From Nectonema munidae (lineage: Eukaryota > Nematomorpha > Nectonematoida > Nectonematidae): a DNA stretch of 64,000 bases. The stretch is taken from positions 1,734,501-1,798,500 of the forward strand of contig JAUIRK010000509.1 in assembly GCA_030549495.1 (NCBI GenBank), in the 5' to 3' direction. Both the position numbers and the translations under genes were made by a program. Of the stretch, positions 1 through 45,648 are shown piece by piece (the first letter of the stretch is position 1; each line of letters starts with the position of its first letter). Under the pieces are notes generated by a model. It was not told the origin of the DNA, ran no database searches, and was given only the letters and a program-made list of their open reading frames with translations.

Positions 1-57
1 CACCTAAATCATTTTAAATTAGTATGCGCTAACAACAGCCTCATCTCCACTTTTTAC

Positions 58-168
58 TTAAGCAAGATCCATTGATAAAGGAATAACCTTCTTCGCATTC
101 GCAAAAATATCCACTTATTGTTTGAACACATTTTGAGTTTCCTGGACACGTTGACTTTGCTGGCACTT
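58..168 (-). CDS. EGF-like domain exon (partial gene)
   Basis: A 111-nt exon read on the minus strand. It is preceded by an AG acceptor and followed by a GTAAAA donor, and both introns are phase 1, as is usual for EGF modules. It encodes about 37 residues with the pattern C-x5-C-x8-C-x-C-x8-C, including CECEEGYSF before the last cysteine. This is an EGF-like fold with five rather than six cysteines. The frame joins smoothly to the exon ending at 2449 (shared Glu-Val start), so it may be a downstream exon of the gene at 2338-3401. The protein would be extracellular or membrane-anchored. The family member cannot be named. Confidence 0.6.
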
Positions 169-2337
169 CTCTACATGCATATACCACTAAAAGCATATAG
201 TAATGTTTTTATCTTGGCTATTGGAAATTTGCCCATCTGTCGTCATTTGCGTAACGGACGATTCCACAATTTTAAGGTAACACTAACCTGCATTCTCACA
301 AAGTGTCTAGCTGAACATTTTATTGTGTAACTAACCAACCAGCAATTAAAAGGCATGCTTAGTGCAATTTGAAAAGACTTTTACCTTAATCTTCATCATT
401 GAAAACTGATAAACCTATTAAACTTGAAAACGGAAAGAATTTTTATGACACTGCCAATTTGCTTTTTTACATATGGCAAAAGTCAATTTGGTGAATATTC
501 TTTGTGTTTGTTGTAAGGATTTATATAGTAGAGGGAATATACTCTAGACTGAGATTGACAATAATATATAAATTTTTATAAAAGACTTCGTGATGCTTAG
601 AACAATTTCATGTTCTAGGAATGTGCATATACAAGAGAACAAACATACAATATTCACATTGAATGCGGACATAAATTATTTTTTGTATCTAAATTAACAA
701 TATTTAAAGTGTAAGCTAAATTTAGACAAGTAGACTAAAACCTGTTTAGAATCATAGCTACCGGGGCAGCGAGTTAAATAATTTTTCAGTTGGTAGATTT
801 TACCTATATAGTAAATGAAAGATAGACACTTTGAAACCTCCTTCTCTTGTCAACAAAACACTGCTCTTTGTTAAATTATAATTTATATCCTCTCCTTAGC
901 TTTTACTTCATTACAAAACGCATATAGGTTTTGAATAAAGCAATGCAAAACTTGATCAAAAAAAAGAAGTGAGAATTTTTTAATTTATGGTATAAACATT
1001 ATATTCGATTTTATCATTTTACAAGTTTCTTTTATTTCAGAGAATAAAACAATTTTAAATATTTTTAAATACTTGAAAATGGTAGTTTTGAGTGTTTTGA
1101 CTTATTTTATTTTAAAAATAATTAACTTTTGATTTTCTACAAACTTGTCAAAAATGGTTGATTAATGACAAATTGACTGTGTTTCATAAAAAATTAAGGT
1201 CATCAATCAATTCAGCGCACTTGAAAATGGTCGTTTTAACTTATTTTATTTTAAAAATAATTATCTTTTGATTTCGGACAAACTTGTCAAAAATGGTTGA
1301 TTAATGACAAATTGACTGTGTTTCATAAAAAATTAAGGTCATCAATCAATTCAGCGCACTTGAAAATGGTCGTTTTAACTTATTTTATTTTAAAAATAAT
1401 TAACTTTTGATTTTCGACAAACTTGTCAAAAATGAAACTTTGGTATACATGAACTCATAAAAATTTTAAATTAAAAACGGAAGCTATACAAATTTTAAGA
1501 TTTTAATATAAGAATCAGGTACATTTCTAAAATAAAATCGCTTATATACACACTTTATTTAGTTAATGATGTTTTTGGAGTTTTTTTCACATTTCTGTAG
1601 AGATGTGATAAATAAAACGAATATTCAATTTAACTATAATATATGCACCGATGCATTTACATAACTTGCATGGCAGTTCGCCTCCCCTCGGTTTTTGTCG
1701 GTTTAGGTGTGCCCCTTAAAAGATACAAACTAAAAAGATAGAAAGATTTAAGTGAAAGCGATATTTTTATGCTTTTTAATAAAGTTTAACTGAAATTGCT
1801 GGCTCTGATATCGAAGATGCTGTTTACAATCTTACGAGTTATTATTTATTCTTGCACAGATGGGCGCATATAAGTAAGCATAAAAAATTAAGAGGCCTTT
1901 TTAAACCAAATGCCCTCTGGCTTTAAAAGCTAGTTACGCCTTTCCCATGATATTATATATACATAAGTAAAATGAAGTTAAATTAACAGAACCAGGGACT
2001 ATTTATTTTAAAGATAAGTGTGAGATTCTTTATTTAAAAACTACAGACTTAATATCAACCCCATCATGTTTAATTTTTTATATCTTGCTTTCTTTTGATT
2101 CCGAGAGCAGTGTGAAATATATTGACTCACAGATTCATGTTAATGGAAAAAGAAGCCGGGCTCAATTGATCTGTTCAGAAACAATTTACTTCCTCCTAAT
2201 GTCTTGAAAACACCTCGATAAAGACAGGAAATTTGAGCCCTGAACGAGTTACAACAAGAATGAATGCAGGTAGTGAACTCGTAAAAACACGTTAAATCAG
2301 ATAATAAACACAACGCAGTGTAAAAAAGGTTTTCATA
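169..2337. other. Intronic or intergenic AT-rich stretch
   Basis: No coding region can be supported here apart from the tandem repeat listed at 1072-1434. If the EGF exon at 58-168 belongs to the upstream exons, this is an intron of about 2.3 kb. A cysteine-bearing open stretch on the minus strand near 2140-2290 has no splice support. Confidence 0.5.
1072..1434. repeat. 139-bp tandem repeat, about 2.6 copies
   Basis: Three copies begin with CTTGAAAATGGT at 1072, 1220 and 1359. Copies two and three are offset by 139 bp. The first is 148 bp because of a short extra segment (GAGTGTTTTG). Copies two and three are almost identical over the shared part, and the third is truncated at 1434. The sequence is AT-rich and non-coding. 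Confidence 0.85.
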
Positions 2338-3401
2338 TTAGAGCAAGACGCAACCTGGATCTTCGGGAATTGTAACATAGTACCCATTAACTTCTGTAAA
2401 TAAATAAAATGTATTGCTTTTATGATCCTGACATAATCTTATAAATACCTTGACAATTTCCATCAATCTCCTGATAACCTTTTTTACAAAAGCATTCGTA
2501 TACTCCATGATGATGAACCCATTTCGAGTATTCTGGACACGATCTATTTTCTTTGGAAAGAGCTGTGGGAAAGTGAAATAAATCTAAAGTCCAAAGTAAA
2601 AGTAAGGGTAGCTAAAGATTTACGAAGACATGAAGATTTGTATAATTCATAGCCTTCATCACAAGCAAGATAGCGCATATCGTCTTTCTCCACACAGTGC
2701 GAGTGTGGAATATCGTAAACAGATTTCGAATTATTCATAGAGCATTCATCTATTTCTTAAAAAATGAAAGACGGCTTTAAGTAAGCGATGAGACTAAATA
2801 GCTCACATCACCATAAAATACCTCAAATAACACAAGATAATCTATAAAACTGTCTATTAAATATTACTATTTTTCCTTGTTTTAACAAGTGTCTTGATTT
2901 TAAAATCCCTTCAAAATTAGATTTTTTGGTATTTTTAGTCATCTATTATAAATTGAATTGAATAATTTATAAAAATATTTAATTTTAAAAATTATATTAT
3001 AGTATAAAAATGGTTAGTTTATTTGCTGGTTAAGATTTTAAAACGTGTAAGTTAAACTTAAAATAAAAGTATAGTTAGTACCTTCACATGTTTTTTAATT
3101 AGAATACTTTTTATTATATAAAAAATTAAAAAATCTTTAAGCACTTTGATAAATGATGCAAACTATCAAATCGTATTTTATGGTCTCGTAAGGTTTTTAA
3201 ATATGTTTGTATAGGTTTTTGGATGTTTCGGCTGAACTTTTAAAAATTGAGAGGGAAGTAAATACTTACTCTCACAAGAGCGTTCAAATGGTTTAATTCC
3301 AAGTCTTTGATCACAAATACAGATGCTTGATCCGTCTAATGTTTTCACTGCTTTTCCTTGAGGACCACATTTTTCAACTTGGAGACTCCAGGCGTACACA
3401 A
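2338..3401 (-). CDS. EGF-like repeat protein, 3' part (exons 3401-3270, 2749-2624, 2562-2449, 2393-2338)
   Basis: Four minus-strand exons are supported by splice sites and frame. Exon 3401-3270 follows TTATAG and ends GAGA|GTAAGT. Exon 2749-2624 follows AAATAG and ends CTTC|GTAAAT. Exon 2562-2449 follows CCCACAG and ends CAAG|GTATTT. A terminal exon 2393-2338 follows TTTACAG and ends in TAA. The first three are symmetrical 1-1 phase exons, each one EGF-like module of 38-44 residues with a C-x-C or C-x(n)-GY core. Cysteine counts are four or five instead of six: Trp or Ala sits where the second cysteine is expected in two modules. The final 18-residue tail has one cysteine and no membrane segment. 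The intron before it is only 55 nt, so the tail is less certain than the modules. No signal peptide exon was found, so the 5' end is missing. A secreted or matrix protein is likely; I do not recognise the gene. Confidence 0.6.
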
Positions 3402-4571
3402 CTATAAATCAGAATCAATAATATCAAAACCATTATATTAAAGAAAATATTTATATTAAACTATACAGTGAATCAATAATTTCAAAACCATTAAAATTGT
3501 TTAGAAAGAATTAAATAGAAAACAAACGTGCATGCTTACAAAGGAAAAAGTGAATTTTTGGTAGAAATCATAGCCCTCTCAAATCCTTTGATACTAGAAT
3601 ATTATTTTTGAAAAAAATAAGGTCTGAAAATCGGAATTTTTCATTTTTTTTCACCTCGAAATTGAAAATAGCTGATAAAAATTAAGTTAGTGTAAATTTA
3701 AATTTACTGGATTGATATTTTTTTATGAAAAATTAAAAAAAAGTGAAATTGATTATATTAATTTAATTTTGGAAGAAGCAACAAGATAGAAAAGTTTCAT
3801 TTCCTAAAAAAATTTTCCAGCAAATATATAAAACCACTGAGATGGTGTAGGCCATTGCTAGTAACAATTGTTTGCTCAGAACGACATAGCATTTCTTAGC
3901 TGTTGTTGTTTCCCGTAAAATGAGAGGTGATATAAAATAAAGCGAGACATCTTTAGATGACAAAATATTAAAGATTTTTACAAAATTCTCCCTCGCATTC
4001 ACTAAATATGTGATTGCGAATTTGACGCCATTTTATTTTTTTATGAAATGCAATCAAACCTGACAACCAATGCAAAGTATACAACAATATATAAATATTC
4101 TTGATTTATGTGATAGGCCTGTTTACGGTGTTTAACTCAGTTAAAATATTTAACCCGTTATACATTAACATTTATATGAGATATTTTTTAATGATTCTTT
4201 CCATGTCATCAATAGAAGGGGGACCAACTCTCTACGCGAGAGGACGTGATGTCATGTTTGCTTAAAGCTCACAAAACTTACATTTACAGATTTTTATTTC
4301 TCGTTAAATTTGTTATAACTCCATAGATGCTTCATATATTGCACAATTAATGTAATTGTTTTGGAACAATGATTTGTATAAAATCAATTACTTACACTTT
4401 AATATAGGCGTGTTCAAGGAAAAAATGAAAGAAAGATACATAGAAAGTTATTTATATAAATGTACTATCTCATAACCTGCACGGTTGAACGCCGGTAGAT
4501 AGCTTGTTTGTCATTTCCAACCTCTATACTACGCTGCATATTAGGCAGACAAGGTTGAAATTTATGTTCAT
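3402..4571. other. Non-coding stretch between the EGF-like exons and the satellite
   Basis: No exon could be supported. An open stretch on the minus strand at 3763-4002 contains a hydrophobic run after an internal ATG, which could suggest a signal peptide exon, but no donor follows it. A dispersed repeat lies at 3970-4105. Confidence 0.4.
3970..4105. repeat. Dispersed repeat, copy 1
   Basis: This stretch resembles 49558-49680. Shared blocks are TTTTTACAAAATTCT, TGATTGCG, a TCATTTTATTTTT-like run, ATCAAACCTG and CAATGCA followed by ATATA. Identity is moderate with small gaps. It looks like two old copies of one short interspersed element with no coding capacity. Confidence 0.45.
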
Positions 4572-7500
4572 AAAACCTATATTTTTGCAATTTGCACACT
4601 TTTAAATAATATATTTGTCAATTAATCAAATAATCAAAGATGCGAACACCTTATCTAACATACCCTCTCTTTCCCACCTAAAGAAAAATGGTCAAATTCG
4701 ATTCACATTGAAATTTTTCGACAATATCTACATCTTCATTAATTTCATATTTTTCTAGAAAAAGATTTAGACGATTTTACAAAAGTTAAAACCTATATTT
4801 TTGCAATTTGCACACTTTTAAATAATATATTTGTCAATTAATCAAATAATCAAAGATGCGAACACCTTATCTAACATACCCTCTCTTTCCCACCTAAAGA
4901 AAAATGGTCAAATTCGATTCACATTGAAATTTTTCGACAATATCTACATCTTCATATATTTCATATTTTTCTAGAAAAAAGATTTAGACGATTTTACAAA
5001 AGTTAAAACCTATATTTTTGCAATTTGCACACTTTTAAATAATATATTTGTCAATTAATCAAATAATCAAAGATGCGAACCCCTTATCTAACATACCCTT
5101 TCTTTCCCACCTAAAGAAAAATTGTCAAATTCGATTCACATTGAAATTTTTAGACAATATCTACATCTTCATATATTTCATATTTTTCTAGAAAAAAGAT
5201 TTAGACGATTTTACAAAAGTTAAAACCTATATTTTTGCAATTTGCACACTTTTAAATAATATATTTGTCAATTAATCAAATAATCAAAGATGCGAACCCC
5301 TTATCTAACATACCCTTTCTTTTCCCACCTAAACAAAAATTGTCAAATTCGATTCACATTGAAATTTTTAGACAATATCTACATCTTCATATATTTCATA
5401 TTTTTCTAGAAAAAAGATTTAGACGATTTTACAAAAGTTAAAACCTATATTTTTGCAATTTGCACACTTTTAAATAATATATTTGTCAATTAATCAAATA
5501 ATCAAAGATGCGAACCCCTTATCTAACATACCCTTTCTTTCCCACCTAAAGAAAAATTGTCAAATTCGATTCACATTGAAATTTTTAGATAATATCTACA
5601 TCTTCATATATTTCATATTTTTCTAGAAAAAAGATTTAGACGATTTTACAAAAGTTAAAACCTATATTTTTGCAATTTGCACACTTTTAAATAATATATT
5701 TGTCAATTAATCAAATAATCAAAGATGCGAACCCCTTATCTAACATACCCTTTCTTTCCCACCTAAAGAAAAATTGTCAAATTCGATTCACATTGAAATT
5801 TTTAGACAATATCTACATCTTCATATATTTCATATTTTTCTAGAAAAAAAGATTTAGACGATTTTACAAAAGTTAAAACCTATATTTTTGCAATTTGCAC
5901 ACTTTTAAATAATATATTTGTCAATTAATCAAATAATCAAAGATGCGAACCCCTTATCTAACATACCCTCTCTTTCCCACCTAAAGAAAAATGGTCAAAT
6001 TCGATTCACATTGAAATTTTTCGACAATATCTACATCTTCATATATTTCATATTTTTCTAGAAAAAAGATTTAGACGATTTTACAAAAGTTAAAACCTAT
6101 ATTTTTGCAATTTGCACACTTTTAAATAATATATTTGTCAATTAATCAAATAATCAAAGATGCGAACCCCTTATCTAACATACCCTTTCTTTCCCACCTA
6201 AAGAAAAATTGTCAAATTCGATTCACATTGAAATTTTTAGACAATATCTACATCTTCATATATTTCATATTTTTCTAGAAAAAAGATTTAGACGATTTTA
6301 CAAAAGTTAAAACCTATATTTTTGCAATTTGCACACTTTTAAATAATATATTTGTCAATTAATCAAATAATCAAAGATGCGAACCCCTTATCTAACATAC
6401 CCTTTCTTTCCCACCTAAAGAAAAATTGTCAAATTCGATTCACATTGAAATTTTTAGACAATATCTACATCTTCATATATTTCATATTTTTCTAGAAAAA
6501 AGATTTAGACGATTTTACAAAAGTTAAAACCTATATTTTTGCAATTTGCACACTTTTAAATAATATATTTGTCAATTAATCAAATAATCAAAGATGCGAA
6601 CCCCTTATCTAACATACCCTTTCTTTCCCACCTAAAGAAAAATTGTCAAATTCGATTCACATTGAAATTTTTAGACAATATCTACATCTTCATATATTTC
6701 ATATTTTTCTAGAAAAAAGATTTAGACGATTTTACAAAAGTTAAAACCTATATTTTTGCAATTTGCACACTTTTAAATAATATATTTGTCAATTAATCAA
6801 ATAATCAAAGATGCGAACCCCTTATCTAACATACCCTTTCTTTCCCACCTAAAGAAAAATTGTCAAATTCGATTCACATTGAAATTTTTAGACAATATCT
6901 ACATCTTCATATATTTCATATTTTTCTAGAAAAAAAGATTTAGACGATTTTACAAAAGTTAAAACCTATATTTTTGCAATTTGCACACTTTTAAATAATA
7001 TATTTGTCAATTAATCAAATAATCAAAGATGCGAACCCCTTATCTAACATACCCTTTCTTTCCCACCTAAAGAAAAATTGTCAAATTCGATTCACATTGA
7101 AATTTTTAGACAATATCTACATCTTCATATATTTCATATTTTTCTAGAAAAAAGATTTAGACGATTTTACAAAAGTTAAAACCTATATTTTTGCAATTTG
7201 CACACTTTTAAATAATATATTTGTCAATTAATCAAATAATCAAAGATGCGAACCCCTTATCTAACATACCCTTTCTTTCCCACCTAAAGAAAAATTGTCA
7301 AATTCGATTCACATTGAAATTTTTAGACAATATCTACATCTTCATATATTTCATATTTTTCTAGAAAAAAGATTTAGACGATTTTACAAAAGTTAAAACC
7401 TATATTTTTGCAATTTGCACACTTTTAAATAATATATTTGTCAATTAATCAAATAATCAAAGATGCGAACCCCTTATCTAACATACCCTTTCTTTCCCAC

Positions 7501-10500
7501 GTAAAGAAAAATGGTCAAATTCGATTCACATTGAAATTTTTAGACAATATCTACATCTTCATATATTTCATATTTTTCTAGAAAAAAGATTTAGACGATT
7601 TTACAAAAGTTAAAACCTATATTTTTGCAATTTGCACACTTTTAAATAATATATTTGTCAATTAATCAAATAATCAAAGATGCGAACCCCTTATCTAACA
7701 TACCCTTTCTTTCCCACCTAAAGAAAAATTGTCAAATTCGATTCACATTGAAATTTTTAGACAATATCTACATCTTCATATATTTCATATTTTTCTAGAA
7801 AAAAGATTTAGACGATTTTACAAAAGTTAAAACCTATATTTTTGCAATTTGCACACTTTTAAATAATATATTTGTCAATTAATCAAATAATCAAAGATGC
7901 GAACCCCTTATCTAACATACCCTTTCTTTCCCACGTAAAGAAAAATGGTCAAATTCGATTCACATTGAAATTTTTAGACAATATCTACATCTTCATATAT
8001 TTCATATTTTTCTAGAAAAAAGATTTAGACGATTTTACAAAAGTTAAAACCTATATTTTTGCAATTTGCACACTTTTAAATAATATATTTGTCAATTAAT
8101 CAAATAATCAAAGATGCGAACCCCTTATCTAACATACCCTTTCTTTCCCACCTAAAGAAAAATTGTCAAATTCGATTCACATTGAAATTTTTAGACAATA
8201 TCTACATCTTCATATATTTCATATTTTTCTAGAAAAAAGATTTAGACGATTTTACAAAAGTTAAAACCTATATTTTTGCAATTTGCACACTTTTAAATAA
8301 TATATTTGTCAATTAATCAAATAATCAAAGATGCGAACCCCTTATCTAACATACCCTTTCTTTCCCACCTAAAGAAAAATGGTCAAATTCGATTCACATT
8401 GAAATTTTTAGACAATATCTACATCTTCATATATTTCATATTTTTCTAGAAAAAAGATTTAGACGATTTTACAAAAGTTAAAACCTATATTTTTGCAATT
8501 TGCACACTTTTAAATAATATATTTGTCAATTAATCAAATAATCAAAGATGCGAACCCCTTATCTAACATACCCTCTCTTTCCCACCTAAAGAAAAATGGT
8601 CAAATTCGATTCACATTGAAATTTTTAGACAATATCTACATCTTCATATATTTCATATTTTTCTAGAAAAAAGATTTAGACGATTTTACAAAAGTTAAAA
8701 CCTATATTTTTGCAATTTGCACACTTTTAAATAATATATTTGTCAATTAATCAAATAATCAAAGATGCGAACCCCTTATCTAACATACCCTCTCTTTCCC
8801 ACCTAAAGAAAAATGGTCAAATTCGATTCACATTGAAATTTTTCGACAATATCTACATCTTCATATATTTCATATTTTTCTAGAAAAAAAGATTTAGACG
8901 ATTTTACAAAAGTTAAAACCTATATTTTTGCAATTTGCACACTTTTAAATAATATATTTGTCAATTAATCAAATAATCAAAGATGCGAACCCCTTATCTA
9001 ACATACCCTTTCTTTCCCACCTAAAGAAAAATTGTCAAATTCGATTCACATTGAAATTTTTAGACAATATCTACATCTTCATATATTTCATATTTTTCTA
9101 GAAAAAAGATTTAGACGATTTTACAAAAGTTAAAACCTATATTTTTGCAATTTGCACACTTTTAAATAATATATTTGTCAATTAATCAAATAATCAAAGA
9201 TGCGAACCCCTTATCTAACATACCCTCTCTTTCCCACCTAAAGAAAAATGGTCAAATTCGATTCACATTGAAATTTTTAGACAATATCTACATCTTCATA
9301 TATTTCATATTTTTCTAGAAAAAAGATTTAGACGATTTTACAAAAGTTAAAACCTATATTTTTGCAATTTGCACACTTTTAAATAATATATTTGTCAATT
9401 AATCAAATAATCAAAGATGCGAACCCCTTATCTAACATACCCTTTCTTTCCCACCTAAAGAAAAATGGTCAAATTCGATTCACATTGAAATTTTTAGACA
9501 ATATCTACATCTTCATATATTTCATATTTTTCTAGAAAAAAGATTTAGACGATTTTACAAAAGTTAAAACCTATATTTTTGCAATTTGCACACTTTTAAA
9601 TAATATATTTGTCAATTAATCAAATAATCAAAGATGCGAACCCCCTTATCTAACATACCCCCCTCTTTCCCACCTAAAGAAAAATGGTCAAATTCGATTC
9701 ACATTGAAATTTTTAGACAATATCTACATCTTCATATATTTCATATTTTTCTAGAAAAAAGATTTAGACGATTTTACAAAAGTTAAAACCTATATTTTTG
9801 CAATTTGCACACTTTTAAATAATATATTTGTCAATTAATCAAATAATCAAAGATGCGAACCCCTTATCTAACATACCCTCTCTTTCCCACCTAAAGAAAA
9901 ATGGTCAAATTCGATTCACATTGAAATTTTTAGACAATATCTACATCTTCATATATTTCATATTTTTCTAGAAAAAAGATTTAGACGATTTTACAAAAGT
10001 TAAAACCTATATTTTTGTAATTTGCACACTTTTAAATAATATATTTGTCAATTAATCAAATAATCAAAGATGCGAACCCCTTATCTAACATACCCTTTCT
10101 TTCCCACCTAAAGAAAAATTGTCAAATTCGATTCACATTGAAATTTTTAGACAATATCTACATCTTCATATATTTCATATTTTTCTAGAAAAAAAGATTT
10201 AGACGATTTTACAAAAGTTAAAACCTATATTTTTGCAATTTGCACACTTTTAAATAATATATTTGTCAATTAATCAAATAATCAAAGATGCGAACCCCTT
10301 ATCTAACATACCCTTTCTTTCCCACCTAAAGAAAAATTGTCAAATTCGATTCACATTGAAATTTTTAGACAATATCTACATCTTCATATATTTCATATTT
10401 TTCTAGAAAAAAGATTTAGACGATTTTACAAAAGTTAAAACCTATATTTTTGCAATTTGCACACTTTTAAATAATATATTTGTCAATTAATCAAATAATC

Positions 10501-13500
10501 AAAGATGCGAACCCCTTATCTAACATACCCTTTCTTTCCCACCTAAAGAAAAATTGTCAAATTCGATTCACATTGAAATTTTTAGACAATATCTACATCT
10601 TCATATATTTCATATTTTTCTAGAAAAAAGATTTAGACGATTTTACAAAAGTTAAAACCTATATTTTTGCAATTTGCACACTTTTAAATAATATATTTGT
10701 CAATTAATCAAATAATCAAAGATGCGAACCCCTTATCTAACATACCCTCTCTTTCCCACCTAAAGAAAAATGGTCAAATTCGATTCACATTGAAATTTTT
10801 AGACAATATCTACATCTTCATATATTTCATATTTTTCTAGAAAAAAGATTTAGACGATTTTACAAAAGTTAAAACCTATATTTTTGCAATTTGCACACTT
10901 TTAAATAATATATTTGTCAATTAATCAAATAATCAAAGATGCGAACCCCTTATCTAACATACCCTTTCTTTCCCACCTAAAGAAAAATTGTCAAATTCGA
11001 TCACATTGAAATTTTTAGACAATATCTACATCTTCATATATTTCATATTTTTCTAGAAAAAAGATTTAGACGATTTTACAAAAGTTAAAACCTATATTTT
11101 TGCAATTTGCACACTTTTAAATAATATATTTGTCAATTAATCAAATAATCAAAGATGCGAACCCCTTATCTAACATACCCTTTCTTTCCCACCTAAAGAA
11201 AAATTGTCAAATTCGATTCACATTGAAATTTTTAGACAATATCTACATCTTCATATATTTCATATTTTTCTAGAAAAAAAGATTTAGACGATTTTACAAA
11301 AGTTAAAACCTATATTTTTGCAATTTGCACACTTTTAAATAATATATTTGTCAATTAATCAAATAATCAAAGATGCGAACCCCTTATCTAACATACCCTT
11401 TCTTTCCCACCTAAAGAAAAATTGTCAAATTCGATCACATTGAAATTTTTAGACAATATCTACATCTTCATATATTTCATATTTTTCTAGAAAAAAGATT
11501 TAGACGATTTTACAAAAGTTAAAACCTATATTTTTGCAATTTGCACACTTTTAAATAATATATTTGTCAATTAATCAAATAATCAAAGATGCGAACCCCT
11601 TATCTAACATACCCTCTCTTTCCCACCTAAAGAAAAATGGTCAAATTCGATTCACATTGAAATTTTTAGACAATATCTACATCTTCATATATTTCATATT
11701 TTTCTAGAAAAAAGATTTAGACGATTTTACAAAAGTTAAAACCTATATTTTTGCAATTTGCACACTTTTAAATAATATATTTGTCAATTAATCAAATAAT
11801 CAAAGATGCGAACCCCTTATCTAACATACCCTTTCTTTCCCACCTAAAGAAAAATTGTCAAATTCGATTCACATTGAAATTTTTAGACAATATCTACATC
11901 TTCATATATTTCATATTTTTCTAGAAAAAAGATTTAGACGATTTTACAAAAGTTAAAACCTATATTTTTGCAATTTGCACACTTTTAAATAATATATTTG
12001 TCAATTAATCAAATAATCAAAGATGCGAACCCCTTATCTAACATACCCTTTCTTTCCCACCTAAAGAAAAATTGTCAAATTCGATTCACATTGAAATTTT
12101 TAGACAATATCTACATCTTCATATATTTCATATTTTTCTAGAAAAAAGATTTAGACGATTTTACAAAAGTTAAAACCTATATTTTTGCAATTTGCACACT
12201 TTTAAATAATATATTTGTCAATTAATCAAATAATCAAAGATGCGAACCCCTTATCTAACATACCCTTTCTTTCCCACCTAAAGAAAAATTGTCAAATTCG
12301 ATTCACATTGAAATTTTTAGACAATATCTACATCTTCATATATTTCATATTTTTCTAGAAAAAAGATTTAGACGATTTTACAAAAGTTAAAACCTATATT
12401 TTTGCAATTTGCACACTTTTAAATAATATATTTGTCAATTAATCAAATAATCAAAGATGCGAACCCCTTATCTAACATACCCTTTCTTTCCCACCTAAAG
12501 AAAAATTGTCAAATTCGATTCACATTGAAATTTTTAGACAATATCTACATCTTCATATATTTCATATTTTTCTAGAAAAAAGATTTAGACGATTTTACAA
12601 AAGTTAAAACCTATATTTTTGCAATTTGCACACTTTTAAATAATATATTTGTCAATTAATCAAATAATCAAAGATGCGAACCCCTTATCTAACATACCCT
12701 TTCTTTCCCACCTAAAGAAAAATTGTCAAATTCGATTCACATTGAAATTTTTAGACAATATCTACATCTTCATATATTTCATATTTTTCTAGAAAAAAGA
12801 TTTAGACGATTTTACAAAAGTTAAAACCTATATTTTTGCAATTTGCACACTTTTAAATAATATATTTGTCAATTAATCAAATAATCAAAGATGCGAACCC
12901 CTTATCTAACATACCCTTTCTTTCCCACCTAAAGAAAAATTGTCAAATTCGATTCACATTGAAATTTTTAGACAATATCTACATCTTCATATATTTCATA
13001 TTTTTCTAGAAAAAAGATTTAGACGATTTTACAAAAGTTAAAACCTATATTTTTGCAATTTGCACACTTTTAAATAATATATTTGTCAATTAATCAAATA
13101 ATCAAAGATGCGAACCCCTTATCTAACATACCCTTTCTTTCCCACCTAAAGAAAAATTGTCAAATTCGATTCACATTGAAATTTTTAGACAATATCTACA
13201 TCTTCATATATTTCATATTTTTCTAGAAAAAAGATTTAGACGATTTTACAAAAGTTAAAACCTATATTTTTGCAATTTGCACACTTTTAAATAATATATT
13301 TGTCAATTAATCAAATAATTAAAGATGCGAACCCCCTTATCTAACATACCCTTTCTTTCCCACCTAAAGAAAAATTGTCAAATTCGATTCACATTGAAAT
13401 TTTTAGACAATATCTACATCTTCATATATTTCATATTTTTCTAGAAAAAAGATTTAGACGATTTTACAAAAGTTAAAACCTATATTTTTGCAATTTGCAC

Positions 13501-16500
13501 ACTTTTAAATAATATATTTGTCAATTAATCAAATAATCAAAGATGCGAACCCCTTATCTAACATACCCTTTCTTTCCCACCTAAAGAAAAATTGTCAAAT
13601 TCGATTCACATTGAAATTTTTAGACAATATCTACATCTTCATATATTTCATATTTTTCTAGAAAAAAGATTTAGACGATTTTACAAAAGTTAAAACCTAT
13701 ATTTTTGCAATTTGCACACTTTTAAATAATATATTTGTCAATTAATCAAATAATCAAAGATGCGAACCCCTTATCTAACATACCCTTTCTTTCCCACCTA
13801 AAGAAAAATTGTCAAATTCGATTCACATTGAAATTTTTAGACAATATCTACATCTTCATATATTTCATATTTTTCTAGAAAAAAGATTTAGACGATTTTA
13901 CAAAAGTTAAAACCTATATTTTTGCAATTTGCACACTTTTAAATAATATATTTGTCAATTAATCAAATAATCAAAGATGCGAACCCCTTATCTAACATAC
14001 CCTTTCTTTCCCACCTAAAGAAAAATTGTCAAATTCGATTCACATTGAAATTTTTAGACAATATCTACATCTTCATATATTTCATATTTTTCTAGAAAAA
14101 AGATTTAGACGATTTTACAAAAGTTAAAACCTATATTTTTGCAATTTGCACACTTTTAAATAATATATTTGTCAATTAATCAAATAATCAAAGATGCGAA
14201 CCCCTTATCTAACATACCCTTTCTTTCCCACCTAAAGAAAAATTGTCAAATTCGATTCACATTGAAATTTTTAGACAATATCTACATCTTCATATATTTC
14301 ATATTTTTCTAGAAAAAAGATTTAGACGATTTTACAAAAGTTAAAACCTATATTTTTGCAATTTGCACACTTTTAAATAATATATTTGTCAATTAATCAA
14401 ATAATCAAAGATGCGAACCCCTTATCTAACATACCCTTTCTTTCCCACCTAAAGAAAAATTGTCAAATTCGATTCACATTGAAATTTTTAGACAATATCT
14501 ACATCTTCATATATTTCATATTTTTCTAGAAAAAAGATTTAGACGATTTTACAAAAGTTAAAACCTATATTTTTGCAATTTGCACACTTTTAAATAATAT
14601 ATTTGTCAATTAATCAAATAATCAAAGATGCGAACCCCTTATCTAACATACCCTTTCTTTCCCACCTAAAGAAAAATTGTCAAATTCGATTCACATTGAA
14701 ATTTTTAGACAATATCTACATCTTCATATATTTCATATTTTTCTAGAAAAAAGATTTAGACGATTTTACAAAAGTTAAAACCTATATTTTTGCAATTTGC
14801 ACACTTTTAAATAATATATTTGTCAATTAATCAAATAATCAAAGATGCGAACCCCTTATCTAACATACCCTCTCTTTCCCACCTAAAGAAAAATGGTCAA
14901 ATTCGATTCACATTGAAATTTTTAGACAATATCTACATCTTCATATATTTCATATTTTTCTAGAAAAAAGATTTAGACGATTTTACAAAAGTTAAAACCT
15001 ATATTTTTGCAATTTGCACACTTTTAAATAATATATTTGTCAATTAATCAAATAATCAAAGATGCGAACCCCTTATCTAACATACCCTTTCTTTCCCACC
15101 TAAAGAAAAATTGTCAAATTCGATTCACATTGAAATTTTTAGACAATATCTACATCTTCATATATTTCATATTTTTCTAGAAAAAAGATTTAGACGATTT
15201 TACAAAAGTTAAAACCTATATTTTTGCAATTTGCACACTTTTAAATAATATATTTGTCAATTAATCAAATAATCAAAGATGCGAACCCCTTATCTAACAT
15301 ACCCTTTCTTTCCCACCTAAAGAAAAATTGTCAAATTCGATTCACATTGAAATTTTTAGACAATATCTACATCTTCATATATTTCATATTTTTCTAGAAA
15401 AAAGATTTAGACGATTTTACAAAAGTTAAAACCTATATTTTTGCAATTTGCACACTTTTAAATAATATATTTGTCAATTAATCAAATAATCAAAGATGCG
15501 AACCCCTTATCTAACATACCCTTTCTTTCCCACCTAAAGAAAAATTGTCAAATTCGATTCACATTGAAATTTTTAGACAATATCTACATCTTCATATATT
15601 TCATATTTTTCTAGAAAAAAGATTTAGACGATTTTACAAAAGTTAAAACCTATATTTTTGCAATTTGCACACTTTTAAATAATATATTTGTCAATTAATC
15701 AAATAATCAAAGATGCGAACCCCTTATCTAACATACCCTTTCTTTCCCACCTAAAGAAAAATTGTCAAATTCGATTCACATTGAAATTTTTAGACAATAT
15801 CTACATCTTCATATATTTCATATTTTTCTAGAAAAAAGATTTAGACGATTTTACAAAAGTTAAAACCTATATTTTTGCAATTTGCACACTTTTAAATAAT
15901 ATATTTGTCAATTAATCAAATAATCAAAGATGCGAACCCCTTATCTAACATACCCTTTCTTTTCCCACCTAAAGAAAAATTGTCAAATTCGATTCACATT
16001 GAAATTTTTAGACAATATCTACATCTTCATATATTTCATATTTTTCTAGAAAAAAGATTTAGACGATTTTACAAAAGTTAAAACCTATATTTTTGCAATT
16101 TGCACACTTTTAAATAATATATTTGTCAATTAATCAAATAATCAAAGATGCGAACCCCTTATCTAACATACCCTCTCTTTCCCACCTAAAGAAAAATGGT
16201 CAAATTCGATTCACATTGAAATTTTTAGACAATATCTACATCTTCATATATTTCATATTTTTCTAGAAAAAAGATTTAGACGATTTTACAAAAGTTAAAA
16301 CCTATATTTTTGCAATTTGCACACTTTTAAATAATATATTTGTCAATTAATCAAATAATCAAAGATGCGAACCCCTTATCTAACATACCCTCTCTTTCCC
16401 ACCTAAAGAAAAATGGTCAAATTCGATTCACATTGAAATTTTTCGACAATATCTACATCTTCATATATTTCATATTTTTCTAGAAAAAAAGATTTAGACG

Positions 16501-19500
16501 ATTTTACAAAAGTTAAAACCTATATTTTTGCAATTTGCACACTTTTAAATAATATATTTGTCAATTAATCAAATAATCAAAGATGCGAACCCCTTATCTA
16601 ACATACCCTCTCTTTCCCACCTAAAGAAAAATTGTCAAATTCGATTCACATTGAAATTTTTAGACAATATCTACATCTTCATATATTTCATATTTTTCTA
16701 GAAAAAAGATTTAGACGATTTTACAAAAGTTAAAACCTATATTTTTGCAATTTGCACACTTTTAAATAATATATTTGTCAATTAATCAAATAATCAAAGA
16801 TGCGAACCCCTTATCTAACATACCCTTTCTTTCCCACCTAAAGAAAAATTGTCAAATTCGATTCACATTGAAATTTTTAGACAATATCTACATCTTCATA
16901 TATTTCATATTTTTCTAGAAAAAAGATTTAGACGATTTTACAAAAGTTAAAACCTATATTTTTGCAATTTGCACACTTTTAAATAATATATTTGTCAATT
17001 AATCAAATAATCAAAGATGCGAACCCCTTATCTAACATACCCTTTCTTTCCCACCTAAAGAAAAATTGTCAAATTCGATTCACATTGAAATTTTTAGACA
17101 ATATCTACATCTTCATATATTTCATATTTTTCTAGAAAAAAGATTTAGACGATTTTACAAAAGTTAAAACCTATATTTTTGCAATTTGCACACTTTTAAA
17201 TAATATATTTGTCAATTAATCAAATAATCAAAGATGCGAACCCCTTATCTAACATACCCTTTCTTTTCCCACCTAAAGAAAAATTGTCAAATTCGATTCA
17301 CATTGAAATTTTTAGACAATATCTACATCTTCATATATTTCATATTTTTCTAGAAAAAAGATTTAGACGATTTTACAAAAGTTAAAACCTATATTTTTGC
17401 AATTTGCACACTTTTAAATAATATATTTGTCAATTAATCAAATAATCAAAGATGCGAACCCCTTATCTAACATACCCTTTCTTTCCCACCTAAAGAAAAA
17501 TTGTCAAATTCGATTCACATTGAAATTTTTAGACAATATCTACATCTTCATATATTTCATATTTTTCTAGAAAAAAGATTTAGACGATTTTACAAAAGTT
17601 AAAACCTATATTTTTGCAATTTGCACACTTTTAAATAATATATTTGTCAATTAATCAAATAATCAAAGATGCGAACCCCTTATCTAACATACCCTTTCTT
17701 TCCCACCTAAAGAAAAATTGTCAAATTCGATTCACATTGAAATTTTTCGACAATATCTACATCTTCATATATTTCATATTTTTCTAGAAAAAAGATTTAG
17801 ACGATTTTACAAAAGTTAAAACCTATATTTTTGCAATTTGCACACTTTTAAATAATATATTTGTCAATTAATCAAATAATCAAAGATGCGAACCCCTTAT
17901 CTAACATACCCTCTCTTTCCCACCTAAAGAAAAATTGTCAAATTCGATTCACATTGAAATTTTTCGACAATATCTACATCTTCATATATTTCATATTTTT
18001 CTAGAAAAAAGATTTAGACGATTTTACAAAAGTTAAAACCTATATTTTTGCCATTTACACACTTTTAAATAATATATTTGTCAATTAATCAAATAATCAA
18101 AGATGCGAACCCCTTATCTAACATACCCTCTCTTTCCCATCTAAAGAAAAATGGTCAAATTCGATTCACATTGAAATTTTTCGACAATATCTACATCTTC
18201 ATATATTTCATATTTTTCTAGAAAAAAGATTTAGACGATTTTACAAAAGTTAAAACCTATATTTTTGCAATTTGCACACTTTTAAATAATATATTTGTCA
18301 ATTAATCAAATAATCAAAGATGCGAACCCCTTATCTAACATACCCTCTCTTTCCCACCTAAAGAAAAATGGTCAAATTCGATTCACATTGAAATTTTTCG
18401 ACAATATCTACATCTTCATATATTTCATATTTTTCTAGAAAAAAGATTTAGACGATTTTACAAAAGTTAAAACCTATATTTTTGCAATTTGCACACTTTT
18501 AAATAATATATTTGTCAATTAATCAAATAATCAAAGATGCGAACCCCTTATCTAACATACCCTCTCTTTCCCACCTAAAAAAAATGGTCAAATTCGATTC
18601 ACATTGAAATTTTTCGACAATATCTACATCTTCATATATTTCATATTTTTCTAGAAAAAAGATTTAGACGATTTTACAAAAGTTAAAACCTATATTTTTG
18701 CAATTTGCACACTTTTAAATAATATATTTGTCAATTAATCAAATAATCAAAGATGCGAACCCCTTATCTAACATACCCTCTCTTTCCCACCTAAAGAAAA
18801 ATGGTCAAATTCGATTCACATTGAAATTTTTCGACAATATCTACATCTTCATATATTTCATATTTTTCTAGAAAAAAGATTTAGACGATTTTACAAAAGT
18901 TAAAACCTATATTTTTGCAATTTGCACACTTTTAAATAATATATTTGTCAATTAATCAAATAATCAAAGATGCGAACCCCTTATCTAACATACCCTCTCT
19001 TTCCCACCTAAAGAAAAATGGTCAAATTCGATTCACATTGAAATTTTTCGACAATATCTACATCTTCATATATTTCATATTTTTCTAGAAAAAAGATTTA
19101 GACGATTTTACAAAAGTTAAAACCTATATTTTTGCAATTTGCACACTTTTAAATAATATATTTGTCAATTAATCAAATAATCAAAGATGCGAACCCCTTA
19201 TCTAACATACCCTCTCTTTCCCACCTAAAGAAAAATGGTCAAATTCGATTCACATTGAAATTTTTCGACAATATCTACATCTTCATATATTTCATATTTT
19301 TCTAGAAAAAAGATTTAGACGATTTTACAAAAGTTAAAACCTATATTTTTGCAATTTGCACACTTTTAAATAATATATTTGTCAATTAATCAAATAATCA
19401 AAGATGCGAACCCCTTATCTAACATACCCTCTCTTTCCCACCTAAAGAAAAATGGTCAAATTCGATTCACATTGAAATTTTTCGACAATATCTACATCTT

Positions 19501-21027
19501 CATATATTTCATATTTTTCTAGAAAAAAGATTTAGACGATTTTACAAAAGTTAAAACCTATATTTTTGCAATTTGCACACTTTTAAATAATATATTTGTC
19601 AATTAATCAAATAATCAAAGATGCGAACCCCTTATCTAACATACCCTCTCTTTCCCACCTAAAGAAAAATGGTCAAATTCGATTCACATTGAAATTTTTC
19701 GACAATATCTACATCTTCATATATTTCATATTTTTCTAGAAAAAAGATTTAGACGATTTTACAAAAGTTAAAACCTATATTTTTGCAATTTGCACACTTT
19801 TAAATAATATATTTGTCAATTAATCAAATAATCAAAGATGCGAACCCCTTATCTAACATACCCTCTCTTTCCCACCTAAAGAAAAATGGTCAAATTCGAT
19901 TCACATTGAAATTTTTCGACAATATCTACATCTTCATATATTTCATATTTTTCTAGAAAAAAGATTTAGACGATTTTACAAAAGTTAAAACCTATATTTT
20001 TGCAATTTGCACACTTTTAAATAATATATTTGTCAATTAATCAAATAATCAAAGATGCGAACCCCTTATCTAACATACCCTCTCTTTCCCACCTAAAGAA
20101 AAATGGTCAAATTCGATTCACATTGAAATTTTTCGACAATATCTACATCTTCATATATTTCATATTTTTCTAGAAAAAAGATTTAGACGATTTTACAAAA
20201 GTTAAAACCTATATTTTTGCAATTTGCACACTTTTAAATAATATATTTGTCAATTAATCAAATAATCAAAGATGCGAACCCCTTATCTAACATACCCTCT
20301 CTTTCCCACCTAAAGAAAAATGGTCAAATTCGATTCACATTGAAATTTTTCGACAATATCTACATCTTCATATATTTCATATTTTTCTAGAAAAAAGATT
20401 TAGACGATTTTACAAAAGTTAAAACCTATATTTTTGCAATTTGCACACTTTTAAATAATATATTTGTCAATTAATCAAATAATCAAAGATGCGAACCCCT
20501 TATCTAACATACCCTCTCTTTCCCACCTAAAGAAAAATGGTCAAATTCGATTCACATTGAAATTTTTCGACAATATCTACATCTTCATATATTTCATATT
20601 TTTCTAGAAAAAAGATTTAGACGATTTTACAAAAGTTAAAACCTATATTTTTGCAATTTGCACACTTTTAAATAATATATTTGTCAATTAATCAAATAAT
20701 CAAAGATGCGAACCCCTTATCTAACATACCCTCTCTTTCCCACCTAAAGAAAAATGGTCAAATTCGATTCACATTGAAATTTTTCGACAATATCTACATC
20801 TTCATATATTTCATATTTTTCTAGAAAAAAGATTTAGACGATTTTACAAAAGTTAAAACCTATATTTTTGCAATTTGCACACTTTTAAATAATATATTTG
20901 TCAATTAATCAAATAATCAAAGATGCGAACCCCTTATCTAACATACCCTCTCTTTCCCACCTAAAGAAAAATGGTCAAATTCGATTCACATTGAAATTTT
21001 TCGACAATATCTACATCTTCATATATT
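4572..21027. repeat. 217-bp satellite array, about 75.8 units
   Basis: A head-to-tail tandem array. Unit starts (AAAACCTATATTTTTGC) fall at 4572, 4788, 5005, 5222 and on to 20855. Unit length is 217 bp, varying by 1-3 bases through A-run and small indel changes. Seventy-five full units are followed by 173 bp of a last one, and flanks diverge abruptly at both ends. Units are almost identical but form two subtypes. Type A has CCCTCTC, AAATGGTC and TTTTTCGAC; type B has CCCTTTC, AAATTGTC and TTTTTAGAC. Type A fills the left edge and the right 14 or so units; type B and mixtures fill the middle. Each unit has the 14-bp palindrome TTTTTCTAGAAAAA. There is no sustained reading frame and no CENP-B-like box. 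A centromeric or heterochromatic role is possible but not shown. Confidence 0.97.
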
Positions 21028-21783
21028 GGCATTTTTCATAGTTATGAAAGATGCAAATTTTGGAAATTTTGAGACTTTGTATCAATATTAGCGACGCTAG
21101 ATTTTCCGTGTAGACAAGATAAACACTTCTACGAGCAGAACTTCACACATGAAATGCATGGTCGGTATTGTATTAAAAATTATTTTAAAAGCGTATTTTT
21201 CGGATCTGAAATAGAACTCGTCTTTCACAAAACGAAAGTAATTCTGATTGAACTGTGCACGGTTATGCTAAAATTGGCAGTAGAAGAGAGCCCCACCCCA
21301 CCGAAAACAAAACTCAGTTCTATTCACTAGTTTGGTTAGTGAATGAATTATACATCATGCACTTGTGTGTTGAGTCTTTATCGCATTCATTCCCACAGTC
21401 GCCGGCTCTTCATTAACTTTCCCTGTAGTTATTTATCATATACAGCTACACCCCCAACATCTGTTTCCAATGAAAATGCGCTATCTTTTTTGCTTTTTCT
21501 CATGCAGTCCTTTCTGAGAGTGAAGTGCCAGTGGTTTGCGTAGAAAAAGCTTCTTACGACAAAAAACTTTTTTTTTCCTATTTGATTGACAACTTTCTGA
21601 CGGATATAATTGCACCATAATCTTCAACATAATCCTTCTCCGTTTACCGACAACGCATGCAACAACACTATAGTGTAATCCCAGTATATGCAACTAAAAA
21701 CTTATTAGTATCATTCCACTAGTCTTGTTTAGTACACTTACTTGTTGGTTTAATAACAAGTAACTTTACGAGAATGCATAACA
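21028..21783. other. Satellite flank, no gene seen
   Basis: Single-copy sequence begins directly after the truncated satellite unit. Short open frames at 21343-21543 (plus) and 21481-21693 (minus) overlap each other in antisense and show no family pattern. This stretch may include the upstream part of the MULE relic that starts at 21784. Confidence 0.4.
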
Positions 21784-35314: not shown

Positions 35315-37676
35315 AGTACAACATGAGTATTTTTTACCCATTTGTTTTTTCCATATCTTATATATCAAAAACTTTTAACTCGATTCAAATAAAATTTATT
35401 TTATGTTAATTTCAATTTGCTTTAAAATAACTTCACAAAAAACTTGATTTTTCATATTTTCAAAAAACTGTGATAAAATATATGGGGTAAAAAATACCCA
35501 TATATGTGTCACTAATATTATATGATTTCTAAGTCTCTATAACAACATACATTCATGCTGCATGTGTCTTGTCAAATTTTGACGTATCTTACTTGCTGTT
35601 TTCATTTATCTTCATCACCTGTTCTTCGATTTTTTTCATTTACACGTCAGTTTCATTTATCATTTTGATTGAACAAACTTTGCTATTATCTTACTTCAGA
35701 GTCACCATATATATTATTTCTCAGGCTTTTTTTTACTTTTCCAATGCCTAAAGAAAGAGAGTCAAAAGAAAGAGCGTTGTGTTCCATATATCAATCTATG
35801 TTCAGCGATAGTGAAAGTGAAAATCAGGTGATAGATAAGCTTTGCCCATTTGGTGTTGAAGAAGTTGATGAATTTTCTTCTGAAGATGATGATAGTTATA
35901 ACGACGAGTTTCTCTCATCTTGTGATGAAAACGATGTAAGTGAGGATTTTTTTGAATCTGAAAGTGAGTCTGATAATGATAATATACCAGCAAATTCCAA
36001 TTCAGTAAAGTCAAATTTGATCTCGAAAGATGGAAAAACATGGATAACCGATCCGTCAAATTTTCTCAAAAAACAACAAAAAGCTAATATTTTTCGTGAA
36101 ATTCCCTTCAAAATTCGTGACTGCTTAAAACCTGACTGTGAGAGCGATGCCATTATGATATTCATCGAAAAAATTATTGAAACATCCGTTCTTTATACCA
36201 ATCTTTACGCTCGACGGCAGATAAGGAAGTTCAATTCTCAATCTTCCAAACAAAGATATTGGAAAAAAGTTTCAACAATAGAGATGAAATCTTTTTATGG
36301 GCTTCTTATTATTGCAGGTGCATACCGTGCGCATTATAGATCAACACTGAACTTTGGTCGACTGCTCATGGACATCCCATTTTCAGATCAACGATGAGTA
36401 GAGAAAGATTCATACAAATAGTCTTTTTTACGATTTGATGATGTCAAAAGAAAAAATAAATCAGATCCTTTGGCTCCAATACGTTTTTTAGTCGAAAGTT
36501 TTTTTGAAAAACTAAGAACATATGTTGTCGCACCAGAATATTTAACAATAGACGAGCAACTTTTGGAATTTCATGGAAGAGTCAAGTTCAAACAATATAT
36601 ACCTACCAAGCCAGGTAAATTTGGGATCAAGTTTTTTTTTGCTTTCAAGCTCTGATGGTGCATACGTTTTCAATGGATTTGTGTACATCGCTAAAAATAG
36701 CTTGCAGGGAAAATATCAGTCAGAAAAAACATCCACAGAAGGAATTGTTTTACAGCTTGCAGAACCCTTTTTATCCAAAGGTAGGAACATAACTGCGGAT
36801 AATTTTTTCAGTTCTTATGAATTAGCAGATAAATTACTCTCAAAAAGGACCACTTACGTAGGAACTGTCAGGAAAAACAAAAGATTTATACCTCCACAAG
36901 CACTTTCAAAAAGTAAAAACAAAGGTTCGTGCAATTTCTTTTTTCATCAAAATAAGGTTTTGTACTCATTTTACGACAAAAAATCAACACCCGTAATTCT
37001 TATTGATACTTTTGGACAAAATTTTAACCAACCTAATACACCTTCAAACTGCAAGCCAAGTACGGTGCTTTTTTATAATGAAACTAAAAGTGGGGTTGAT
37101 ATTGTTGATAAAAAAGTTCGAGCATTCACTTGTAAACGAAAGTGTAAAAGATGGCCTGTTGGTGCAATTAGTAACTTGATCGATATTGCTGGAATCAACG
37201 CCTTCTACATTTACAAGCGTGCAAACGAAAAACCTCTGCTTTCTCATTATGATTTCTACAAATGCTGGTTACCAACTGGTTGATGATCAAATAAAAGAAA
37301 GGAGGGCCAAATTTTTTGTTTACAACAAAAAAATGTTGTAAACTCCTTAGAATTATGTGGTTATGAGGTTGAGGAAAGAAATACTACATCAAATTCTAAA
37401 AAAAATCAAAATAGAAAAGCAAAGAGATGTGTTTTTCGTAAGACAGACAGAAAGTCAAAGACATTATGCTCAATGTGTCAGAAGGTCATTTGCAGCGAGC
37501 ACTCGCTACCAATCTGCATAAGTTGCTTTGAAATAAAAAAATAAACGTTACTTTTTGTTTTTTAGTCATATTATTGTTTGATACAAAAAAAGAATTTATA
37601 TTTTTATGCTTTCTCGGCTATTTTGGTTTAAATTTATAAATTTTTAATATGGGTATTTTTTACCCAGGGTTGTACT
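35315..37676 (+). mobile_element. piggyBac element 1, 2.36 kb
   Basis: Bounded by TTAA (35311-35314) on the left and TTAG (37677-37680) on the right, a TTAA duplication with one change. The ends are AGTACAAC on the left and its complement GTTGTACT on the right. Near the ends lie short palindromes GGGTA-N5-TACCC at 35485-35499 and 37651-37665, and a one-mismatch version (GAGTA start) at 35325-35339. The body encodes a plus-strand piggyBac transposase. Its good state of preservation suggests recent activity in this lineage. Confidence 0.85.
35744..37544 (+). pseudogene. piggyBac transposase (element 1), frameshifted
   Basis: I chose the ATG at 35744 (MPKERESK). An upstream in-frame start at 35669 lies in non-conserved sequence. 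An acidic Ser/Asp/Glu-rich N-terminus is followed by the conserved core. Single-base frame breaks fall at T runs 36380-36383, 36424-36429 and 36632-36640. More breaks follow near 37250 and 37325. Catalytic Asp blocks are all present: YLTIDEQLLEF, NITADNFFSS and SGVDIVDKK. VGTVRKNKRFIPP is the usual piggyBac block. The C-terminus has the cysteine-rich domain CSMCQKVICSEHSLPICISC before TAA 37544. This is a cut-and-paste transposase acting in the nucleus at TTAA. As assembled it is broken, but every lesion checked is one base. Confidence 0.85.
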
Positions 37677-43680: not shown

Positions 43681-44085
43681 GCCTTTATAAAAAAATGTAA
43701 CAATTTAGTACTAAAAAAAATATAAAAAACTTAAATTATGAAAAGAAAAAATTAATTACTCTAATTTTTTCTTGCTTGGACTCTTTTGAACCCAAGATCT
43801 CAAATGTATAAAAAAATATATCCTAATAAGTTAAACATTTTATTGTGTTTTAAAAATTATTTTGTGATTTTTATATTATATGTAGGTAGGTATGGAGATT
43901 TCTAAGCACTTTCCAGCTGGAGCTGATATGCTTGCAAGTCTGCTGGAATTTGGTCTTCAAAGTGTAAGTTTAGTTTTGTGGGTCTTTCTGAAATAGAAAA
44001 AGAAAATTTGGAAGATTTTTATGGGTGTAGACATTAGATTGTTTTGTGGAATGCATGGATTAGTGGTGATAGTGGCTTATTGTTA

Positions 44086-45600: not shown

Positions 45601-45648
45601 TTTTTAAAAAATAGATTTAAATGAGCCCTAGGATCTTATAAGGGTTAA

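Follow-up and report, generated by a model that had tools for sequence, protein, structure and literature searches.

The stretch of Nectonema munidae DNA analyzed here (the window; 64,000 nucleotides, C342:1734501-1798500) lies in a 1.95-Mb contig of a 211.6-Mb assembly of 748 contigs. It holds a long tandem array of a 217-bp unit, located beside EGF-like fragments of a duplicated gene family, and the structure of this array, its unamplified relatives and its origin are considered below. Tandem Repeats Finder placed the array at 4571-21027 with 75.8 copies (99% matches, 0% indels, score 32113), and an anchor sequence, GATGCGAAC, was counted 76 times within it at a spacing of 216-219 bp and without Ns. 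Both results agree with the roughly 75.8 head-to-tail units of 217 bp that the initial annotation had described, and as a long head-to-tail array of a homogeneous monomer the element belongs to satellite DNA in the general sense.

A chimeric unit in a homogeneous array

An alignment of the 76 units contained only five columns with a minority state in at least three units, i.e., columns 31, 55, and 84, which are the subtype sites discussed below, and columns 34 and 124, which are one-base length differences beside single-base runs. The 75 full units comprise 22 distinct sequences, the most frequent present in 30 copies, and singleton changes among them amount to 10 substitutions and 3 indels (unit 76, which continues into the flank, is excluded from these counts). 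A regular higher-order period was not found in units 3-62, where every lag from 1 to 44 was at p ≥ 0.03 (3000 shuffles).

Each unit is made of about 111 bp of a dispersed repeat and about 106 bp of local host DNA. A search of the assembly with two units gave at least 54 matches (39 of 787 candidates scored), many of them short, restricted to one part of the unit and located on many contigs, with a few longer ones on contigs C637 and C237. The repeat part corresponds to window positions 4572-4638 plus a continuation at the end of each unit. The assembly contains 568 matches to its 22-base core (up to 3 mismatches), 326 in plus and 242 in minus orientation with the array included; 76 of these matches are in the array and about 492 elsewhere, against 3 in a reversed control, so the monomer shares sequence with a repeat found at unlinked places. 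A second motif of the same repeat, kept left of the array at 4504-4529, has 113 occurrences including that one. Since it is dispersed across the assembly, we regard the repeat as a putative transposon; it is short and apparently non-autonomous. Among the nine dispersed copies examined, four had internal direct repeats of at least 60 bp (L005, L008, L011, and L014) and two had a 3'-side inverted repeat with a span above 150 bp (L013 and L014); ends, a target-site duplication, a coding partner or a mobile-element class were not established for the repeat.

The monomer is not wholly contained in this element, as about 106 of its 217 bp are host DNA that is free of the repeat at two other loci (C637b and C237, see below). 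This host half measures 106 bp and begins with GATGCGAAC. It is single-copy at C637:43690, C637:9362, and C237:35867, and in each case the sequence that borders the array on the right follows it, apart from minor insertions or losses. Two boundaries define the unit. The first is the fusion point of repeat and host DNA (4638/4639), which recurs in each unit: 74 of 76 units match the fusion pattern (72 exactly, 2 with one mismatch), and units 24 and 41 fall outside these matches through an inserted C at the fusion point. The second is the tandem junction, at which the host half ending in CATCTTCATATATT is joined to the repeat half starting with TCATATTTTTCTAG with approximately one shared base (T), and which is identical in 74 of 75 cases. 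When both were searched in the whole assembly with up to 3 mismatches, the fusion point gave 74 matches, in the array only, and the tandem junction gave 75, which all fall within the array (window 4731-20824); the opposite strand and a reversed control gave none. The assembly-wide searches with junction and fusion point thus end at a single locus and favor the local expansion next to an EGF-like gene that the initial annotation had offered as one possibility.

A 14-bp palindrome, TTTTTCTAGAAAAA, starts five bases into the repeat half and is present in 75 copies in the array. The left edge of the array is without about 41 bp of the unit, the palindrome included, and this loss begins about 4 bp inside the tandem-junction breakpoint in the repeat. 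The right edge runs into the host flank just as in the unamplified loci.

Unamplified paralogues

Three unamplified loci were aligned with the array at this point, located at about 43 kb (C637a) and 9.3 kb (C637b) of contig C637 and at about 35.8 kb of contig C237 (referred to by the contig name). C637:42156-44300 matches both flanks of the array (86.5% over window 3241-4638 and 91.8% over 20922-21553); the left-flank stretch 4233-4537 shows 13 mismatches to C637a over 305 columns, and for the right flank there are 21 mismatches over 511 columns with 23 gap columns. At C637a (43.3-43.7 kb) the repeat and the host half occur once each, with 159 bp between them (43531-43689). At C637b (C637:9362) and at C237:35867, the host half has other, non-repeat sequence on its left, so the dispersed repeat is present at this point in two of the four loci (the window and C637a). 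The last 47 of the 159 bp are common to both repeat-free loci, and therefore the short form in the window represents a loss. Furthermore, the flanks of the array keep the phase of the unamplified locus to its left as well as to its right, which, together with the local host DNA inside the unit, implies that the array grew in place.

C637 and C237 are likelier to be paralogues than haplotigs, because the P5CR gene located 41 kb to the right of the array was found once in the assembly and because the EGF-like locus has several close copies, distributed over C237, C637, and C145. As the P5CR gene was found once, the stretch around it is not present as two haplotigs. C637 itself contains a large imperfect inverted duplication (24487-98708), in which 49907-59188 matches 64954-74194 at 99.0% and 38257-42379 matches 83426-87688 at 98-99%; no match longer than 250 bp to the satellite-progenitor region was found in its second arm.

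Two unit types and their polarity

Units of type A carry C, G, and C at columns 31, 55, and 84, and units of type B carry T, T, and A. Across the 76 units the haplotypes were TTA (42), CGC (19), CGA (8), TGA (4), CTA (1), TTC (1), and CTC (1). The initial annotation had proposed that linked variants at three sites define two subtypes; the two subtypes are indeed present and their linkage is strong, yet it is incomplete, with 15 of 76 units mixed at the three sites. The layout that it had described, with A in the two leftmost and about 14 rightmost units, B dominant in the middle and mixed units in between, was recovered: type A occupies units 1-2 and 63-76 (14 units on the right, anchors from 18102), to which the isolated units 7, 20, and 55 have to be added, and units 61-62 (TTC, CTC) form a stepwise transition from B to A. 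The GAACACC variant reported as private to the leftmost two units is indeed confined to them (2 of 76). This order is far from random, as the haplotypes form 29 runs along the array compared to a mean of 47.9 and a minimum of 33 in shuffled orders (0 of 20000 shuffles had 29 or fewer), and the longest A run comprises 14 units vs. at most 8 in shuffles. All four base combinations are present at the site pairs 31/55 and 55/84, hence the units have recombined or been converted.

Single-strand DNA folding of two type-B units gave a z of -3.3, with none of 100 shuffles equally stable. In this predicted fold T55 pairs with an A in the stem ATTGTC/GACAAT, where the G55 of type A would create a mismatch, and site 84 is a bulge next to the stem (sites 55 and 84 of unit 3 are window positions 5123 and 5152).

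The unamplified paralogues provide outgroup bases for the three sites. At site 31, C637a and C637b have T, the base of type B, and C237 is ambiguous, as a 7-bp loss there makes the base depend on gap placement. Site 55 is T, again as in B, in C637a and C637b and G, as in A, in C237. At site 84, C637a and C637b have the C of type A, and C237 has a T that belongs to neither type. Because of these outgroup bases, type A probably carries a derived C31 and type B a derived A84. Over the whole host half, type B is one base nearer to C637a and C637b than type A is, and one base more distant from C237 (A and B differ at 7 and 6 of 106 positions from C637a, at 6 and 5 of 106 from C637b, and at 6 and 7 of 98 from C237). 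The presence of A at both edges suggests that the edge units were already of type A while the array was short, and to this extent it agrees with the earlier idea of a B-type expansion inside an older A-type array. Each subtype, however, appears to own a derived change, so this phrase describes the layout, and the descent it implies is not proven. If B had descended from A, sites 31 and 55 would have had to revert to the outgroup bases, which conversion or allele exchange explains better than point mutation. Type B is probably more than a younger offshoot of type A; exchange between two alleles of the array, or conversion, is the better fit.

The EGF-like locus and its surroundings

Coordinates of the features at the locus are collected in Table 1. 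Among the EGF-like fragments on the left, 44-208 passes one Pfam cut-off (EGF, 21.9 vs. 21.5) and 2423-2611 stays below the cut-offs. Fragments 2547-2756 and 3181-3408 have no Pfam match and were called EGF-like by their cysteine pattern, the former being also supported by a weak match of its paralogues to 44-208. The fragments recur in C637 (in both arms of the inverted duplication, and partly near 5-8 kb) and in C237, with stop codons in some frames of the C237 copies and of those at 5-8 kb of C637. Window 1971-3500 has close DNA copies on C237 (two), C637, and C145. Weaker matches of ~68-70%, most of which fall in window 2317-2767, were found on C370, C136, C616, C728, C587, and C682. On C370, C136, and C616 such weaker matches occur in opposite orientations within one contig (e.g., C370:15655 on the plus and 27447 on the minus strand), like on C637, and this family may be prone to inverted duplication.

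Across the 243 kb examined on C342, C637, and C237, the copy number of other tandem repeats with a period of at least 40 bp ranges from 2 to 6. For instance, window 1094-1434 holds 2.5 copies of a 139-bp repeat, and the paralogous places in C637 hold 2.1 and 3.1 copies. Small changes in copy number are usual in this family of loci, and 76 copies are far out of line with them. A GTPase gene is located 12 kb to the right of the array, and the P5CR gene, which had a single match in the assembly, occupies 62.4-63.4 kb of the window. The window also contains five open reading frames with a DDE_Tnp_1_7 domain (35669-37283, 42725-43126, and 55519-56974; four above the cut-off, 35669-36394 below it), described in Pfam as Transposase IS4 and which we take to be a piggyBac-type transposase domain, as well as a reverse transcriptase piece (55032-55352) and an RNase H piece (44148-45635). 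In two protein searches the best-scoring matches had 50% and 46% identity, the latter among the 7998 scored candidates that had most words in common with the query, and the named hits included chelicerates, crustaceans, insects, a priapulid, and molluscs.

Table 1 Features of the satellite locus, in window coordinates
Feature	Position	Strand	Evidence
EGF-like fragments of a duplicated gene family (44-208, 2423-2611, 2547-2756, 3181-3408); array on their 5' side	44..3408	-	Pfam, cysteine pattern
Left remnant of the dispersed repeat in which the array starts; matches to other contigs over 4452-4536, assignment of 4537-4570 based on C637a	4452..4570	+	Assembly search, alignment
Left edge, ~41 bp of unit absent relative to C637a	4571..4572	.	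Alignment with C637a
Tandem array, 217-bp unit, 76 anchors, 75.8 units	4571..21027	+	Tandem Repeats Finder, anchor count, unit alignment
First, edge-truncated copy of the dispersed-repeat half	4572..4638	+	Assembly search, alignment
First copy of the host half, 106 bp; fusion point 4638/4639	4639..4744	+	Alignment, fusion search
Units 1-2, type A (C,G,C), private GAACACC	4639..5071	+	Unit alignment, haplotypes
Units 3-60, type B (T,T,A) predominant; units 7, 20, and 55 single type A units, some units mixed (CGA, TGA, CTA)	5072..17667	+	Unit alignment, haplotypes
Units 61-62, stepwise B to A (TTC, CTC)	17668..18101	+	Unit alignment, haplotypes
Units 63-76, type A block up to the right edge	18102..21027	+	Unit alignment, haplotypes
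Last host half, passing into the right flank without a break, like the host halves of C637a, C637b, and C237	20922..21027	+	Alignment with paralogues
Right flank, collinear with C637a (91.4%); 21094-21536 98.6% identical to C237:36147-36589	21028..21537	+	Alignment

Origin of the array

We consider it highly probable that the array is a young, single-locus satellite that arose in place when end joining duplicated the unit, expanded through unequal exchange, and has no selected function. The proposed history has four steps. A short dispersed repeat would have inserted in an EGF-gene paralogue, near a host piece that is free of the repeat in two other paralogues. The window lineage would then have lost the 159 bp between repeat and host piece, which resulted in their fusion. 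Next, the fused stretch would have been tandemly duplicated by end joining, with about 1 bp shared at the junction and beside the 14-bp palindrome TTTTTCTAGAAAAA. Finally, unequal exchange and gene conversion would account for the rise to 76 copies, for their near-identity and for the mixing of two unit types. The insertion, the 159-bp loss with the fusion and the position of the junction are read off the alignment with the unamplified loci; we infer end joining as the process behind the first duplication, and unequal exchange with conversion as the processes behind growth and homogeneity.

Several observations weigh against so simple a history. Compared to C637a, 1 of 111 positions is changed in the repeat half vs. 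6-7 of 106 in the host half; as the two halves differ in their divergence, no single divergence time can be given and local conversion must be invoked. The right flank is nearer to C237 (98.6%, abruptly from 21094) than to C637a (91-92%), although C237 lacks the repeat, so the history of the locus is a mosaic. The abrupt onset of the 98.6% stretch is a sign of conversion between paralogues, which have probably exchanged pieces, and single ages are not readable from them. Moreover, additional small insertions and losses left of the host piece separate the loci, so that there is no clean pair of filled and empty sites, and assembly or polishing could have changed the copy number and homogeneity of the array.

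Four other explanations were weighed. The one that survives best, although it is improbable, is that the array is under selection, e.g., as a chromatin or regulatory element: it sits 5' of EGF-like fragments in a duplicated gene family, but the expansion is absent in all three paralogues aligned at this point and Rfam gave no match in the window at gathering scores, so neither result indicates a selected function, and none is needed to explain the array. A marginally lower probability is given to an assembly artefact, in which a short array was inflated or shuffled. The extreme identity of the units would be expected in that case, and the one-base length differences beside single-base runs (columns 34 and 124) resemble sequencing error; on the other hand, the subtypes are laid out in a non-random order with stepwise boundary units, both flanks are joined in phase, and the fusion and junction sequences would stand regardless.

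It is very improbable that the array represents the minor assembled part of an abundant satellite, centromeric or pericentromeric, with its bulk unassembled. The unit length and AT-richness of the array resemble those of many satellites, and unassembled blocks are conceivable in an assembly of 748 contigs, but other contigs hold zero copies of the tandem junction or the fusion point (3 or fewer mismatches), both flanks are collinear with an unamplified paralogue, and the array is embedded in a 1.95-Mb contig with the GTPase and P5CR genes to its right. In the assembled DNA, junction and fusion point gave their 75 and 74 matches in the array only, and no high copy number across many places was seen. 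As the junctions of the unit were found at no other place in the assembly, the reading as a major or centromeric satellite was rejected, and the suggestion that the array might be a centromeric or heterochromatic major satellite found no support in the sequence, where the 76 units occupy a single locus and the flanks align collinearly with a gene-family locus that is not amplified. Rolling-circle routes have been proposed for satellites generally. That the array arrived from elsewhere, as an extrachromosomal circle or a ready-made tandem block that transposed, has a similarly minimal probability: a rolling-circle route (RCR) is named for satellites in PMC12628747, but the unit includes local host DNA and both flanks continue it in phase as in the unamplified locus, so that excision and a return to the identical place would be required, and the insertion of a ready-made array was ruled out by the in-phase flanks.

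Relation to known systems

Minisatellite or variable number of tandem repeats (VNTR) loci evolve by unequal exchange. The array resembles them in its restriction to one locus, its local expansion and its variant units arranged in blocks, but a 217-bp unit repeated across 16.5 kb places it at the satellite end of the range. Satellites and tandem repeats derived from transposable elements are known from several organisms. Retrotransposon-derived tandem repeats in Lathyrus (PMC7004042) and Xstir and miDNA4 in Xenopus, derived from miniature inverted-repeat transposable elements (MITEs; as told in PMC12628747), arose from internal repeats or internal sequence, and satellites derived from short interspersed nuclear elements (SINEs) in squamates are more homogeneous in longer arrays (PMC10702118). 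Reviews of transposon-derived satellites include microhomology-initiated end joining and unequal exchange among the proposed mechanisms (PMC12628747, PMC9659126). The array in the window shares with the Lathyrus, squamate, and Xenopus satellites that a piece of a dispersed element became the monomer of an array and was then homogenized. In those systems, however, the monomers are described as pieces of the element and the arrays are present at several or many loci, whereas here nearly half of the monomer is host DNA and only one locus is involved.

Helentron-associated elements (HINE) may carry central satellite-like arrays, e.g., Cg_HINE in the Pacific oyster (PMC7492417). The parent repeat described here is likewise short, dispersed, and AT-rich, with internal direct repeats in some copies and a 3'-side inverted repeat in some. 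Unlike in HINE as outlined in that source, subterminal inverted repeats and oligo-T insertion were not established for it, and the array in the window has host DNA in its units and is not carried along by the element. For transposon-derived tandem repeats of the human genome, PMC3389668 discusses models of initiation that involve slippage or recombination between short direct repeats, and a terminal unit that is incomplete. A local tandem duplication involving a transposon is common to both cases, but the present array has 76 units, and its repeat-free and single-copy stages survive as paralogues. A limited literature search (titles and the beginnings of abstracts) did not find a satellite with a monomer formed by transposon-host fusion and with its earlier stages preserved as paralogues, which is no proof that none exists.

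Implications for satellite birth

The origins of satellites are usually hidden, as the founding locus gets overwritten. Here the unamplified, the repeat-bearing and the amplified states coexist as paralogues, which makes the breakpoints, the founder sequence and the order of events readable and allows the polarity of unit variants to be judged. Transposon-derived satellites are already known as a kind, and what is unusual in this case is the completeness of the birth record. We put forward, as a tentative proposal to which we give slightly less than even odds, that these loci form a natural time series of satellite birth within one genome, from a free host piece (C637b and C237) through the inserted repeat (C637a) to the fusion and the 76-fold array in the window. 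If so, end joining across a transposon-host boundary beside a palindrome could found a satellite with a monomer that counts as neither transposon nor host, and the meeting in one array of two unit types, each derived separately, would reflect exchange between array alleles.

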